A DNA stretch of 64,000 nt from Sporosarcina ureae (GCF_029267015.1 NZ_JARIEA010000042.1:62001-126000), one strand, 5' to 3'. Positions 7,791-33,575 are shown, counted from the stretch's first letter. Numbers and translations are program-made. Notes: generated from the sequence alone by a model not told the origin.

Positions 7791-8870
7791 ATGTGGAGAG
7801 TAGGATGGAAGATTCTTCTTTTACTTTTTATCGTAATGGGAGTCTTTTATTTCATGAGTGATAAAGTGAGTGAGAACGAGCTGCTGGAATCACCCGTGCA
7901 GCACGGTTCGCCAATAGCCGTTCCTGAAAAAGGTCCGTCAATAGGCGGGGAAGGAATGCCGCGGCCAACAGAAGGTATGTCAGTACTTGTTGGACAGAAA
8001 GTTGAGAAGATGGAAGAACAATATGGAGAACCATCTAGGATTGAACCTTCAAGTTTTCAATATGAGTGGTGGATCTATACGGAAGAACCGCGCTTCATGG
8101 CGGGAGTTTTAAAAGGGAAAGTGAATCAGATTTATACTGCTGATAGTACGTCAGATATTGTTCCTTTTAAAATCGGTCAAAATGTACAAGAAATTCATCG
8201 ATTTACACCCATCGAATCTGAGATTGATGTAAAGATTCAAGAGAATATTTATACATTTTCATTAAATAGTGAAGATATAAAAAATCGTATACTGATCCCA
8301 TATGAAAATTTATTCGTGCAATTATATATTGATCAGATAGATGGTGGGATTGAAGGGGTTCGCTTTATTAGCCCAAGTACTTTGGTGAAGCATCAGCCTT
8401 ATGATATGACGTACTTAGGGGAAATGATGGAAGCACCTAAGCCTTCGTCAACCGTACAGACTGAGGTAGATCGTGCTATGGAACGACAGACGTTTGAATT
8501 GACTAATCAGTTGCGTCAAGAACATGAACTGCCACTTTTATCTTATAACGATAAGCTGGCTATACTTTCAAGAAAGCATAGCCAGGAAATGATATTTCGT
8601 AAATATAGTTCCCATGAGGAAGAGCCTGTTCAAGTATATACTGAGCGTTTAAAATCGGTCGGACTAACCCCTAGCAAAGCTGGGGAAAACATAGCGTTCA
8701 ATTATATCGATGCGATTGAAACTGTGCACGGTTGGTTGAATTCTCAAAAACACCGAGATGTCTTATTAAATCCTGACTTCACTGATACTGGCATAGGTGT
8801 TTATAATAAATACTATACACAGGCATTCATAGCGCAAATTGAAACTGAACAATCAATAGAAGAAGACTAA
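7791..8870 (+). CDS. ylbC: CAP (SCP/PR1)-domain secreted protein, YlbC-like
   Basis: N-terminal TM/signal; C-terminal CAP domain (TNQLRQEHELPLLSYNDKLAILSRKHSQEM...AGENIAFNY); first gene of a ylb-type gene order. Confidence 0.9.
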   Translation: MWRVGWKILLLLFIVMGVFYFMSDKVSENELLESPVQHGSPIAVPEKGPSIGGEGMPRPTEGMSVLVGQKVEKMEEQYGEPSRIEPSSFQYEWWIYTEEPRFMAGVLKGKVNQIYTADSTSDIVPFKIGQNVQEIHRFTPIESEIDVKIQENIYTFSLNSEDIKNRILIPYENLFVQLYIDQIDGGIEGVRFISPSTLVKHQPYDMTYLGEMMEAPKPSSTVQTEVDRAMERQTFELTNQLRQEHELPLLSYNDKLAILSRKHSQEMIFRKYSSHEEEPVQVYTERLKSVGLTPSKAGENIAFNYIDAIETVHGWLNSQKHRDVLLNPDFTDTGIGVYNKYYTQAFIAQIETEQSIEED

Positions 8871-9598
8871 GGAAGAATCCATGTACCTTCCTCATTTGAG
8901 CCGATGCCTCGTATATGAAGAGGCATCGCTTTTTGTTGTGCATAAATGGCTGCTTTCTCTTGAATGACAGGTCGATCACATTTTAATAACGGAAGGAACT
9001 CATCAAATAGGAGTTTGTCAAACCGCTTATAGTCAGACGTTTTGTGAGGATCTGCTGACATAACGCCTGGTACATCTTTATAAAACTCTACATGACTGGC
9101 TTGTAATGCAGAGGCTAATGCGATCGCAGTCAGATCACTGCCACCTCTGCCAAGAGTCATAAATTGCCCCTGTATATTCATCCCTTGAAATCCAGGGACG
9201 ATGATGCATGAGTGCTTTTGTAGTGTATTGACGATATGTGTGCTGTTTATTTTGTCAATCGTTGCATTGCAGAATTCGCCTGATGTGCGAATGCCTGTAT
9301 TTTGTCCATAGATTATCGTGTTGTTTATACCTTCAGTAGATAATTCTGCAGATAAGACTGCCGAAGCAATCAATTCCCCGCATGCAGCCGCCAAATCTCT
9401 GGCTTCGCCGGATTTCGAGAAGGAGTCCGTAAGAGTAAGTAAATCGTCTGTGGAATAGGCGTCGCCTCCTCTACCCATTGCAGATACTACAACGATGACA
9501 GCACGATGCTTCGACAAAGCCTGTCGAATATGCTGAATACACTTTGCCCGTTGTTGTTGATTCTGCATGGCAATCCCGCCAAACTTCTGGATAATCAT
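8867..9598 (-). CDS. Aspartokinase catalytic-domain protein (DapG-like) lacking ACT domains
   Basis: KFGG...VVVVSAMGRGGDAYSTDDLL, GRGGSDLTAIALASAL, PGVMSADPH motifs align with DapG; ends after ~243 aa without a regulatory domain. Confidence 0.85.
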   Translation of the reverse strand: MIIQKFGGIAMQNQQQRAKCIQHIRQALSKHRAVIVVVSAMGRGGDAYSTDDLLTLTDSFSKSGEARDLAAACGELIASAVLSAELSTEGINNTIIYGQNTGIRTSGEFCNATIDKINSTHIVNTLQKHSCIIVPGFQGMNIQGQFMTLGRGGSDLTAIALASALQASHVEFYKDVPGVMSADPHKTSDYKRFDKLLFDEFLPLLKCDRPVIQEKAAIYAQQKAMPLHIRGIGSNEEGTWILP

Positions 9599-9619
9599 AG
9601 AATCCCAACTTTCTTCGTG

Positions 9620-9647
9620 ACATTCTTCTTACGCCTTTCATAGAATA
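9620..9647 (+). promoter_or_regulatory. Candidate sigma-K-like promoter (AC-N17-CATAGAATA) upstream of murE
   Basis: AC at 9620-9621, 17-nt spacer, CATAGAATA at 9639-9647; matches the AC-N16/17-CATAnnnTA sigma-K pattern. Confidence 0.4.
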
Positions 9648-9709
9648 CTTTATGCTTCGTTTCATTATATTCTCTGACGAATAAAATGTTCGGGAAGGGG
9701 CGGGATACC

Positions 9710-11116
9710 TTGCTTTTATCTGAATTACTAAAAGATTGGCCATGCACTATTTTACAAGGATCCATACGGTTAAATATCAATGGAATCACGGAATCATCAA
9801 AGAGGGTAAAGGAGAAGTATGTATTTGTTGCAAAGAAAGGGGTTCTGGCAGATGGAACGTCATTTATTGAAGAAGCAATATGTAATGGAGCAAAGACACT
9901 CGTAATCGATCGAACGAACATAGATCTTACGCATATACCATCTAATATTACGGTAGTTCTTGTGCCTGATAGTTCGCTATTTATATCATATGGAAGTGCA
10001 AAACTTTCAGGTGATCCGGCTGAAGTACTACAAATCATTGGCGTTACAGGAACGAATGGTAAAACGACTGTCAGTCACTTTATAGGGCAATTGTTAAATA
10101 AACTTGGGCATAAAACAGCTGTTATAGGAACGACAGGACTTTATATTGACGGGAAGTTAATGGAGACGATTCAAGACTCGATGACAACGATGCCAGCGGA
10201 ACAATTTCATCCGATTTTACGTAGATGTATTAATCAGCAAGTGACGCATATCGTCCTTGAGGCTTCTTCGATTGGATTATCAACTAACCGCTTAGCGCAT
10301 TGTCCGTTAACCGTAGGTGTTTTCTTGAATATCGGAATGGATCATTATGCAGAACATGGGGGGAGACAGCCGTATATAGAGGCGAAGAAGTTATTGACCT
10401 CACTGGCTGATCAGCTTGTGATAAATGAAGACGACGAAATTTGTCGCGCAATAGGCGGGGGAATGTCTGAAACACCTATTTATTTCAGTAGTCAACATAT
10501 CAATGGAAGGCAACAGCAAGCACCACTATTTCCAAATCAAGGTCAACATAATGAAATGAATGCTAGGGCAGCTATATGTGCAGTTATGGCTCTAGGTTAT
10601 TCTTTACGGGCCATTAGACCACATTTGAGCGATTTACGTTTACCTACTGGACGTCTAGAGAAATACGAAGAAGCGGGAGTCGAAGTATATGTGGACTATG
10701 CACATACACCGGATGCATTGCAAGCCGTTCTGCAGGCGTTGTCAGATCGCTCTAGACGGTTAATCACTGTATTTGGGTGTGGAGGTGAAAGAGACCGTGA
10801 GAAACGCCCGCAAATGGGTGCAGTAGCTGCTCACTATAGTTCCCATGTAATTTTAACGTCGGATAATCCAAGGAAAGAGGATCCATCACAAATTATCATA
10901 GACATATTGACAGGCATGGCAGGTTTTTCAACGCCGATTGATATTTTGGTTGATCGTCATCTTGCAATTCAATATGCTATCAGCCAAGCGCAACCAGGAG
11001 AAATTGTACTCATTGCAGGTAAAGGACATGAACAGATTCAGCAAATAGGAAATCAAACTACTCACTTTTGCGATATGGAAGAAGTAAAAAAATCATTTAT
11101 TAGCCGAAATACGTAA
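9710..11116 (+). CDS. murE: UDP-N-acetylmuramyl-tripeptide synthetase, MurE family (DAP-type DNPR motif)
   Basis: GVTGTNGKTTVSH P-loop, VDYAHTPDAL, VFGCGGERDREKRPQMG, SDNPRKEDP. ORF track starts at 9686, but TTG 9710 has a better-placed RBS (ggaagggg) and aligns with typical MurE N-termini. Confidence 0.93.
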   Translation: MLLSELLKDWPCTILQGSIRLNINGITESSKRVKEKYVFVAKKGVLADGTSFIEEAICNGAKTLVIDRTNIDLTHIPSNITVVLVPDSSLFISYGSAKLSGDPAEVLQIIGVTGTNGKTTVSHFIGQLLNKLGHKTAVIGTTGLYIDGKLMETIQDSMTTMPAEQFHPILRRCINQQVTHIVLEASSIGLSTNRLAHCPLTVGVFLNIGMDHYAEHGGRQPYIEAKKLLTSLADQLVINEDDEICRAIGGGMSETPIYFSSQHINGRQQQAPLFPNQGQHNEMNARAAICAVMALGYSLRAIRPHLSDLRLPTGRLEKYEEAGVEVYVDYAHTPDALQAVLQALSDRSRRLITVFGCGGERDREKRPQMGAVAAHYSSHVILTSDNPRKEDPSQIIIDILTGMAGFSTPIDILVDRHLAIQYAISQAQPGEIVLIAGKGHEQIQQIGNQTTHFCDMEEVKKSFISRNT

Positions 11117-11187
11117 AAATAAAAATCTTAATGAATAGTCGAGCAACCCGTTTTTTGATATGATGGTTGTGATAGGAGGTGCGGCAA

Positions 11188-11634
11188 TTGGTAATGATGA
11201 CAGATGAGTGGATGCGAGTCATCGATATGGCGGAAGATCTTTCCGATATGCTGCTGCGTTCTGAAGTGGTGAAAACCTATCAAGACGCACACGACCGTGT
11301 ATATTCAAACGCTGATCTACGAAAGCAGATCATGGATTTCACTAAAATGAAAGAACAATATGAGGATGTACAGCGCTTTGGGCGCTATCATCCAGATTAT
11401 AAAGTAATTATGAAGAGCATACGTCTTCAAAAGCGTGAACTGGATTTACAAGATGAAGTGGCGGCCTTGCGTCTAGCTGAAAATGACGTACAGGATTTGT
11501 TAGATGAAATAGGCATTCTGATTGGCCGGTCGGTTTCCGAAGCAGTGAAAGTACCTGCAGGAGACGGAACATTCTCCAACAGTTCTTGTGGCGGCGGATG
11601 CGGCTCAGGCGGCAGCTGTTCTTGTTCAGCATGA
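11188..11634 (+). CDS. ylbF: YlbF family regulator (Y-complex component) with Cys-rich tail
   Basis: YlbF-like helical protein; C-terminal SSCGGGCGSGGSCSCSA; RBS aggaggt upstream of TTG 11188. Confidence 0.9.
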   Translation: MVMMTDEWMRVIDMAEDLSDMLLRSEVVKTYQDAHDRVYSNADLRKQIMDFTKMKEQYEDVQRFGRYHPDYKVIMKSIRLQKRELDLQDEVAALRLAENDVQDLLDEIGILIGRSVSEAVKVPAGDGTFSNSSCGGGCGSGGSCSCSA

Positions 11635-30643: not shown

Positions 30644-32557
30644 TTGCGGTCATTTATTGATATGCAGTCAAAAAAACGTTTACGTGTAGCCTTCATTTGT
30701 TTTCTCTTCGGTCTACTACTCGTTATAGGGAAACTATTTCATGTGCAGATCATTAAACATGAGTGGCTGAAAGAAAAAGCAGAAGAAAACTGGGATATTG
30801 AAGTGCCTTTTGGGGCTATGCGAGGGAATATTACGGATCGAAGTGGGAAGTTAATTGTTGGAAACAAACTAGCGCCCACATTATATTTCATGCCAGCACA
30901 AAATCCTGACATTTCCAGTGATATACCTGCGATTGCAAAAATCCTTCAAATGCCTCCGGAAAAATTAGAGGAGAAACTGAAGAAAAAAACCTATATGGTG
31001 AAACTGGCTCCCGAAGGAAAAAATATCACCAAAGAACAAGGGGATGAAGTCTCGAAACTGCAAGTAGCCGGCTTGTATGTAGGAGTAGATTTCATCCGCT
31101 ACTATCCATATGATGATCTGTTAGCTCGTTTGCTCGGTTTTACTGGATATGATGGCAATGGCTTAGCGGGAATTGAGTACGCGTACGATGAAATTCTGAA
31201 CGGAACAGGGGACAAAGTACGACTGTTCACTGATGCTAAAGGAATTGCCTTGCCCCATGTAGAGGATAGCTTTGAACATGGTAAAGATGGCTCGACTTTG
31301 GAACTGACGATTGATCTTAAAATGCATCAAATCGTCGAACGCGAACTGATTCAAGCGATGGAAAAGTATGATGCAACACAGGCGTTAGCTATTATTATGA
31401 ACCCGAAAACGGGTGAATTGTTGTCACTAGCATCCGTGCCAGGTTTTGATCCGCGCGAATATCAATCAGCGGATTCCACTATCTATAACCGCAACTTGCC
31501 TGTCTGGATGACATACGAGCCGGGTTCTACATTCAAAATTCTTACCTTGGCTGCTAGCTTAGAAGAAGACGTCATCGATTTGGAAAATGAAAACTTTTAT
31601 GATCCTGGTTACAAAATCGTTGCAAATGCCAGATTACGATGCTGGAAAAGAGAAGGTCATAAAGATCAAACATTTTTGGAAGTAGTAGAGAATTCATGTA
31701 ACCCTGGCTTCATTACGATGGGGCAGAGACTCGGTAGTGAAAGGTTAGATCGTTATATTCGTGAATTTGGCTTTGGTAGCTCAACAGAATCAGGTATTGC
31801 CGGAGAATCGAAAGGTATTTTATTTTCTAAGGAAGCATTTGGACCTGTTGAACAGGCAACCACTTCGTTCGGGCAAGGAATCTCTGTCACCCCGATCCAA
31901 CAAGTGCAAGCTGTTGCCGCAGCTATTAACGGTGGTAAACTTTATAAGCCCTATATTGTCAAATCTATAAAGGACTCTGATGGTAAGACGATTAAACAGT
32001 TCAAACCTGAATTGAAAAGACAAGTAATCAGCGAAGAAACATCAGCTAAGGTGCGTCACGCTCTTGAATCGGTTGTAGCGAATGGATCAGGTCGTAATGC
32101 TTTTGCAGATGGCCTTCGAATAGGTGGTAAAACAGGGACCGCACAAAAAGTAGAGAATGGTCGCTATAAAGATGGTGATTATATAGTCTCCTTCATTGGT
32201 TTCGCGCCTGCAGATGATCCTGAACTACTCGTATATCTAGCGATCGATAGTCCGAAAAACTCGATTCAATTCGGAGGAGTTATCGCTGCACCGATTGTCG
32301 GGCGAATCATTGAAGAAATTGCTCCGATCGCTAACATAGAACGAAGGAAAGAACAGTTAGAAAAAGAGTACCGATGGGGTGACGCGATCACATTCCGTTC
32401 ACCTGATTTACTTGGAATGAATGAAAAAGAATTGTTGTCTCAAAATTACACATTCAAAATAAAGTGGCATGGAAAAGGTAAGAAGGTTATTCGACAGTTA
32501 CCAGCTCCTAATTCTTTGATGACTGTGGAAGACACAATTCATTTATACACAGAATAA
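30644..32557 (+). CDS. spoVD: Stage V sporulation protein D-like class B PBP with PASTA
   Basis: YEPGSTFKILTLAA, IGGKTGTAQKVENGRY; tandem with pbpB. ATG 30662 is an alternative start. Confidence 0.92.
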   Translation: MRSFIDMQSKKRLRVAFICFLFGLLLVIGKLFHVQIIKHEWLKEKAEENWDIEVPFGAMRGNITDRSGKLIVGNKLAPTLYFMPAQNPDISSDIPAIAKILQMPPEKLEEKLKKKTYMVKLAPEGKNITKEQGDEVSKLQVAGLYVGVDFIRYYPYDDLLARLLGFTGYDGNGLAGIEYAYDEILNGTGDKVRLFTDAKGIALPHVEDSFEHGKDGSTLELTIDLKMHQIVERELIQAMEKYDATQALAIIMNPKTGELLSLASVPGFDPREYQSADSTIYNRNLPVWMTYEPGSTFKILTLAASLEEDVIDLENENFYDPGYKIVANARLRCWKREGHKDQTFLEVVENSCNPGFITMGQRLGSERLDRYIREFGFGSSTESGIAGESKGILFSKEAFGPVEQATTSFGQGISVTPIQQVQAVAAAINGGKLYKPYIVKSIKDSDGKTIKQFKPELKRQVISEETSAKVRHALESVVANGSGRNAFADGLRIGGKTGTAQKVENGRYKDGDYIVSFIGFAPADDPELLVYLAIDSPKNSIQFGGVIAAPIVGRIIEEIAPIANIERRKEQLEKEYRWGDAITFRSPDLLGMNEKELLSQNYTFKIKWHGKGKKVIRQLPAPNSLMTVEDTIHLYTE

Positions 32558-32603
32558 GCAGTGCTTCACTGACACGCAATTGATAGTAGAAGGAGAACTT
32601 AAC

Positions 32604-33575
32604 ATGACACTCGGCACCACAGTCACGATAATCGCTGTTTCATTTTTTGTATCAGCGATTATCGGGGTGATCATCATCCCATTACTTAGAAGGTTGAAAT
32701 TTGGTCAAAGTATACGAGAAGAGGGCCCACAAGCGCATATGAAAAAAGCGGGTACTCCCACTATGGGAGGGCTCATCTTCCTTCTCTCTATATTGATTTC
32801 AACACTAACTTTATCTTACATAAACGACACACTAACTACTCATACGATTGTGTTATTGATCGTGCTGATCGGTTTCGGAATCATTGGCTTCCTCGATGAT
32901 TTTATTATTATCGTAGCGAAGCGCAACTTAGGGTTGACATCACTTCAGAAATTAATCGGTCAGATCATCATTGCGATCGTTGCCTTTTTCTTACTGAAAC
33001 TCGGACCATTCGAAACGACCGTAACGATTCCTTTCACGGATCTTGGGATAGATCTCGGTGTGTTTTATGTGGCGTTTTTAGTATTTTGGCTTGTAGGTTT
33101 TTCTAACGCAGTCAATTTAACGGATGGCTTAGATGGTCTAGTAGGCGGTACATCGGCTATTGCATTCTCTGCCTTCGGTGTATTTGCGTTAGCGTATGAG
33201 CAAAATGATATCGCGTTATTTTCATTTGTAGTAGCGGGTGCAATGCTTGGGTTTTTATTATTCAACATCAAACCAGCGAAAGTATTTATGGGGGACACAG
33301 GTTCACTGGCATTAGGAGGCGCACTCGCTATGATTTCAGTATTGATCAAACAGGAGTTGTTGCTGTTGGTCATCGGAATTGTATTCGTAGTAGAAACGCT
33401 TTCTGTCATTATTCAAGTCATCAGTTTTAAAATGACTGGAAAACGTGTATTTAAAATGAGTCCCATTCATCATCACTTTGAATTATCTGGCTGGTCAGAA
33501 TGGAAAGTAGTCATTGTGTTCTGGGGTGTGGCATTACTTGCTGCCCTCGTACCGGTCTTTTTGGAGGTTATGTAA
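32604..33575 (+). CDS. mraY: Phospho-N-acetylmuramoyl-pentapeptide-transferase
   Basis: GTPTMGGLIFL, FSNAVNLTDGLDGL, MSPIHHHFELSGW. Confidence 0.98.
   Translation: MTLGTTVTIIAVSFFVSAIIGVIIIPLLRRLKFGQSIREEGPQAHMKKAGTPTMGGLIFLLSILISTLTLSYINDTLTTHTIVLLIVLIGFGIIGFLDDFIIIVAKRNLGLTSLQKLIGQIIIAIVAFFLLKLGPFETTVTIPFTDLGIDLGVFYVAFLVFWLVGFSNAVNLTDGLDGLVGGTSAIAFSAFGVFALAYEQNDIALFSFVVAGAMLGFLLFNIKPAKVFMGDTGSLALGGALAMISVLIKQELLLLVIGIVFVVETLSVIIQVISFKMTGKRVFKMSPIHHHFELSGWSEWKVVIVFWGVALLAALVPVFLEVM

Follow-up and report, generated by a model that had tools for sequence, protein, structure and literature searches.

A candidate mother-cell meso-DAP ligase gene divergent from an ACT-less aspartokinase gene in Sporosarcina ureae and spore-forming relatives

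In the Bacillus sphaericus group a single cell builds two walls, an outer one containing lysine and a cortex containing DAP, as was described biochemically decades ago. A sporulation-induced DAP ligase activity of B. sphaericus was reportedly studied by Linnett and Tipper in the 1970s, by enzymology in extracts. The mother cell provides the precursors of the cortex, and dipicolinate (DPA) derives from the lysine pathway (PMC7985256). Through its Asn and Arg, the DNPR motif of the E. coli and M. tuberculosis MurE enzymes binds the second carboxylate of DAP; the A409R mutant of S. aureus MurE shows that possession of the motif is not enough for DAP use (PMC3829189).

Here we describe a pair of genes in a 64,000-nucleotide stretch of Sporosarcina ureae DNA (hereafter, the window), one encoding a MurE-type ligase (MurE2) and the other a short aspartokinase (AK-short). 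Our preferred reading, to which we assign a probability of about 0.8, is that MurE2 is a mother-cell meso-DAP ligase for the cortex precursor, and that AK-short feeds DAP, and probably dipicolinate, synthesis without feedback control. It draws on the genes present, their motifs and phylogeny, the promoter-like elements, purifying selection, and a distribution and decay that go together with sporulation. The substrate preference of MurE2, the timing and compartment of expression, the activity of the kinase and its loss of feedback are what we predict from these.

The gene pair and two types of MurE

A preliminary description of this DNA had placed a divergent aspartokinase–MurE pair between ylbC and ylbF, with a DapG-like kinase on the minus strand and DNPR at 10862-10873. 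Both open reading frames were confirmed at the positions it gave (Table 1), PRK08210 is the best NCBIfam model for the kinase (233 bits), and DNPR is encoded at exactly those nucleotides. The two genes diverge from a gap of ~110 bp. The frame of MurE2 is already open from an ATG at 9686; since this codon reads AGG in a close relative (L049), the TTG at 9710, which is preceded by GGGAAGGGG, is the likelier start. The position and reading frames of the pair are retained across dozens of genomes, and the dN/dS against close relatives (0.03-0.07 for the kinase, 0.05-0.09 for MurE2 and 0.03-0.06 for MurE1, the second MurE described below) indicates purifying selection. Because place and frames are kept so widely at such low dN/dS, the pair is not a chance arrangement. 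The ylbC-like flank is also conserved in genomes that lack the pair.

Table 1. Features of the window discussed in the text
Feature	Coordinates	Strand	Remarks
ylbC-like CAP protein, left flank	7791..8870	+	domains CAP, CAP_assoc_N; convergent end with kinase gene
AK-short, ACT-less DapG-type aspartokinase, 243 aa	8867..9598	-	PRK08210 best model, AA_kinase domain
Divergent intergenic control region	9599..9709	.	41 relatives compared
CATAGAATA, predicted mother-cell-type (sigma-K/sigma-E) -10 element for MurE2	9639..9647	+	CATAnnnTA; -35 AC at 9620-9621
CATAAAGTA, overlapping divergent -10 for kinase (tentative)	9646..9654	-	kept in most genomes of the window's genus
MurE2, DAP-type MurE, 468 aa counted from TTG 9710	9710..11116	+	NF001126, DNPR
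DNPR, meso-DAP carboxylate-binding motif of MurE2	10862..10873	+	from sequence; motif role PMC3829189
ylbF, right flank	11179..11634	+	Com_YlbF; synteny conserved
spoVD	30644-32557		TIGR02214 666 bits, just below 688 cut-off
22-bp spoVD-mraY junction, murE site in other Bacilli	32558..32579	+	spoVD and mraY nearly contiguous
mraY	32580-33575

MurE2 scores above the cut-offs of both NF001126 (409.5 bits; cut-off 373) and TIGR01085 (396.8 bits; cut-off 257.3). Assignments to MurF or FolC were rejected by the profile-model matches, and a pseudogene by the dN/dS of 0.05-0.09. The pattern D-N-x-R is present in all 69 MurE2-type proteins collected (61 DNPR, 5 DNAR, 2 DNSR and 1 DNCR). Forms with DN[A/S/C]R were seen at loci L100-L105, L110 and L111, from the kinase-less genera g13, g18 and g19, where the proline varies and the Asn and Arg are constant. 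For the AlphaFold model of MurE2 (pLDDT 89.7), the DAP-adding MurEs of M. tuberculosis and E. coli rank first among PDB folds, with the lysine enzyme of S. aureus close behind, so the fold alone leaves the specificity undecided. In addition, a scan with the MurE2 alignment found a match with 50% identity in Sporosarcina highlanderae.

The preliminary description had proposed searching the genome for a second MurE lacking DNPR, and there is one. The genome encodes five Mur-ligase-type proteins: MurD and MurE2 inside the window, MurF and MurC elsewhere, and a fifth, MurE1 (G000:C58:10166-11656, upstream of the window), which rules out MurE2 as the sole MurE. MurE1 is 32% identical to MurE2, carries DDPR at the DNPR site (as do 31 of 31 MurE1-type proteins among the collected loci) and is followed by prfC. 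In the PDB it matches the L-lysine ligase of S. aureus best by a wide margin (413 bits; the next scores 287). Two staphylococcus-like MurEs with DNPA also adjoin prfC, and in the tree MurE1 and these staphylococcal DNPA MurEs of the prfC locus form one clade (100/98). Relatives such as Lysinibacillus have been described with Lys-Asp walls (PMC6971209). From its clade, its prfC synteny and the Lys-type walls that have been described for relatives, we infer that MurE1 is the L-Lys-adding MurE. In T. maritima, a MurE with DDPR is able to use DAP in vitro (PMC9434261); thus DDPR by itself cannot exclude DAP use, and MurE1 might make both precursors. Since NCBIfam labels MurE1 and MurE2 alike as 'DAP ligase', automatic annotation masks the difference between them.

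MurE1 is absent from g4 and g2, where the other MurE has DDLN (L146 and L147 in g4, L148 in g2) and is possibly a vegetative enzyme for ornithine or another non-DAP residue. DDLN MurEs also occur as extras in some genomes of g7 and g10. A genome of family f15 (G164; L298 and L314) has a DDPR MurE together with a second MurE that reads HDVR at the motif site.

No murE was found in the dcw cluster of the window's genome, where spoVD and mraY almost touch. In the Bacilli genomes examined outside the family, a DNPR murE follows spoVD in this cluster. The tree of MurEs splits three ways, into MurE2, the lysine type of MurE1 and the dcw DAP type, and MurE2 is not nested in the dcw clade. A genome from another Bacilli family (G257; L295 and L313) has a DDPR MurE, 55% identical to MurE1, plus a DNPR MurE in dcw between spoVD and mraY, and possibly resembles a stage before a putative relocation of MurE2.

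Promoter elements and the link to sporulation

The control region of MurE2 contains AC (9620-9621), 17 nucleotides and then CATAnnnTA (CATAGAATA), which matches the -10 consensus of sigma-K and is close to that of sigma-E. CATAnnnTA lies within 100 bp upstream of MurE2 at 42 of 51 loci, which are related and non-independent sequences but span more than 10 genera; shuffled sequences gave a mean of 1.5 and a maximum of 5. The element is present alike in genera with and without the kinase, and it was found upstream of MurE1 at none of 28 loci. The MurE2 promoter is thus predicted to be of the sigma-E/sigma-K, mother-cell type; the -10 element alone cannot separate the two sigmas, and the -35 varies.

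On the minus strand, CATAAAGTA overlaps this element and may serve the kinase gene. It recurs in g4 and across most of the window's genus, and is mostly absent from g3, g5 and g17. A search for sigma-E -35 elements of the kinase promoter, with relatives compared, gave no consistent fit.

We surveyed 151 genomes of the family in 19 genera; spoIVA is present throughout 12 genera, absent from six and mixed in g2. Every one of the 12 uniformly spoIVA-positive genera has MurE2, and none of the six spoIVA-negative ones does (genus-level Fisher p 5e-5, a statistic that ignores phylogeny). For six g4 genomes with split MurE2 hits, presence was confirmed from the fetched locus. The spoIVA-negative genera have an intact ylbC-ylbF site that lacks the pair. 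The mixed genus g2 holds both states: one genome (G020) has intact spoIVA and an intact pair, and in three (G001, G038 and G053) only fragments of spoIVA and C-terminal pieces of MurE2 and the kinase survive. Such remnants are what one would expect if the shared 5′ region of the pair had been lost. The phyletic pattern of MurE2 follows sporulation, with co-decay in g2.

The ACT-less aspartokinase

AK-short matches PRK08210 over profile positions 3-245 of 405. No ACT domain was found in it or in 15 homologues (16 proteins in total), all of which end after the AA_kinase domain; this truncation had escaped the preliminary description. The AlphaFold model has a pLDDT of 91.7, and its best PDB match is the P. 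aeruginosa aspartate kinase 5yei. In a tree of catalytic domains AK-short joins DapG (100/100), apart from LysC, as a single clade on a long stem branch. The short kinase (~250 residues) is present in all sampled genomes of g1, g3, g4, g5, g11 and g17, plus G020 of g2. It is absent from six MurE2-bearing genera, and thus accompanies MurE2 in about half of them; because the six form one clade in the MurE2 tree (100/99), one loss or one gain suffices. Among 301 Bacilli genomes the short form was seen only in the family of the window's organism; DapG-type relatives outside the family are full length (~406 residues or more), with the exception of one hit at a contig end. In another genome of the window's genus (L114 of G039), the AK-short frame is lost after about residue 213, either by a frameshift or by an error of assembly.

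Outside the family, dapG neighbours dapA in the dipicolinate operon of 10 of 10 genomes, with the order dpaA-dpaB-asd-dapG-dapA wherever all parts were detected. The dipicolinate locus of the window's genome reads dpaA-dpaB-asd-dapA, with dapG missing, and the only other aspartokinase of this genome is ThrD-like and lies beside hom. The simplest reading, in a direction that we infer, is that dapG moved out of the operon, was stripped of its ACT domains and now shares a divergent control region with MurE2. The genome also has lysA, and therefore lysine and DAP coexist. Its DpaA (L199:12063-12869(-), G000:C46) is very divergent, at 64.8-66 bits against a TIGR02853 cut-off of 319.65, and its DpaB is normal.

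AK-short, as the relocated dapG of the spoVF operon, could instead act mainly for dipicolinate, its adjacency to MurE2 being the convenience of a shared promoter and not the sign of a DAP-cortex module. The company of dapG and dpaAB in all the outside genomes, its absence from that place here and the fact that DPA draws on the same pathway (PMC7985256) fit such a role; but AK-short and MurE2 have stayed adjacent in seven genera, which argues against dipicolinate as the only destination, and we regard this account as possible but unlikely. The dipicolinate and DAP roles are themselves compatible, because DPA and DAP share the product of AK-short, and the kinase probably serves both.

We are more doubtful still of an account in which MurE2 is the cortex DAP ligase and AK-short a partner that is inactive or has taken on another task, such as regulating MurE2 or LysC/ThrD-type kinases. 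Throughout the AK-short family GG[I/V/A]A replaces the GGTS of KFGGTS, and YKDVPGV, with Lys 174 invariant, replaces TDVDGV. The missing GGTS, the missing TD of TDVDGV, the invariant Lys 174, the long stem branch and the absence of the kinase from half of the MurE2 genera would all suit a protein without an aspartate kinase role. However, Lys5, Ser39, Glu75, Arg151 and Asp155 are invariant in the family, the best folds are aspartate kinases, the dN/dS is 0.03-0.07, and the genome's one other aspartokinase is the ThrD-like protein beside hom.

The preliminary description had proposed that the pair is a sporulation unit for DAP. The MurE2 half of that proposal is supported by the finding of MurE1, by the tracking of spoIVA and by a mother-cell-type -10 element that MurE1 lacks. 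The kinase half is weaker, because AK-short, a DapG derivative without ACT domains, accompanies MurE2 in about half of its genera and differs from other aspartokinases at its ATP site.

Proposed cortex pathway and comparison with described systems

That MurE2 arose by a general MurE duplication, and adds DAP to the vegetative wall or acts as a condition-dependent alternative without a sporulation role, is very improbable: nothing favours it directly beyond the DAP motif of MurE2 and the missing dcw murE, and against it stand the loss or decay of MurE2 wherever spoIVA is lost, the mother-cell-type -10 element and the Lys-Asp walls of relatives such as Lysinibacillus (PMC6971209).

If MurE2 is indeed the cortex ligase, MurE1 would add L-Lys to the wall precursor during growth. 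During sporulation the mother cell would transcribe MurE2 from its sigma-K (or sigma-E) type promoter, and MurE2, as a UDP-MurNAc-L-Ala-D-Glu:meso-DAP ligase, would switch the nucleotide precursor from the L-Lys to the meso-DAP form for the cortex. AK-short would supply aspartyl phosphate, the start of the aspartate pathway, free of feedback by DAP or lysine; we propose that the sporulating cell could therefore make both cortex DAP and core dipicolinate. On the scale of the family, we lean towards a developmental switch of peptidoglycan chemistry, in which one ancestral event moved DAP ligation from dcw to a mother-cell-controlled gene coupled to an ACT-less aspartokinase, as a supply unit for spore DAP and dipicolinate that was lost by genera ceasing to sporulate.

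For the two-wall question there is now a specific candidate gene with a predicted promoter, together with a paralogue for comparison and relatives that lost MurE2, so that single deletions can test it. The ACT-less aspartokinase, if the reading is true, would be a natural case of feedback removal by domain loss, which bears on lysine and dipicolinate production. A literature search, with most subscription journals outside its coverage, found no gene named for the two-wall switch and no description of an ACT-less DapG.

With the meso-DAP-adding MurEs (EC 6.3.2.13; E. coli 1e8c and M. tuberculosis 2xja) MurE2 has in common the fold, the P-loop, the carbamylated-Lys region and D-N-x-R. Unlike them, it lies outside the dcw cluster, forms a deep clade of its own, has a predicted sporulation-type promoter and is the second MurE of an organism with a lysine-type MurE; its middle domain is shortened in the window's lineage. 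MurE1 resembles the S. aureus L-lysine MurE (4c12, of the murE-prfC locus) in clade and prfC synteny and differs from it in having DDPR in place of DNPA; MurE2 belongs to a separate clade from 4c12. AK-short is like DapG (aspartokinase I of the spoVF operon) in its grouping at 100/100 and in belonging to the same aspartate pathway, and unlike it in the missing ACT domains, the other locus and the altered ATP-site residues.

A further parallel is the DAP ligase activity of B. sphaericus. A MurE2 reserved for the spore wall, as the genomic evidence makes it appear, would put a gene to a puzzle that biochemistry has posed since the 1970s. That activity is known from extracts, with no gene assigned as far as we found, whereas MurE2 is known here from its gene, and its predicted activity, its predicted timing and its organism group match those of the ligase of Linnett and Tipper.
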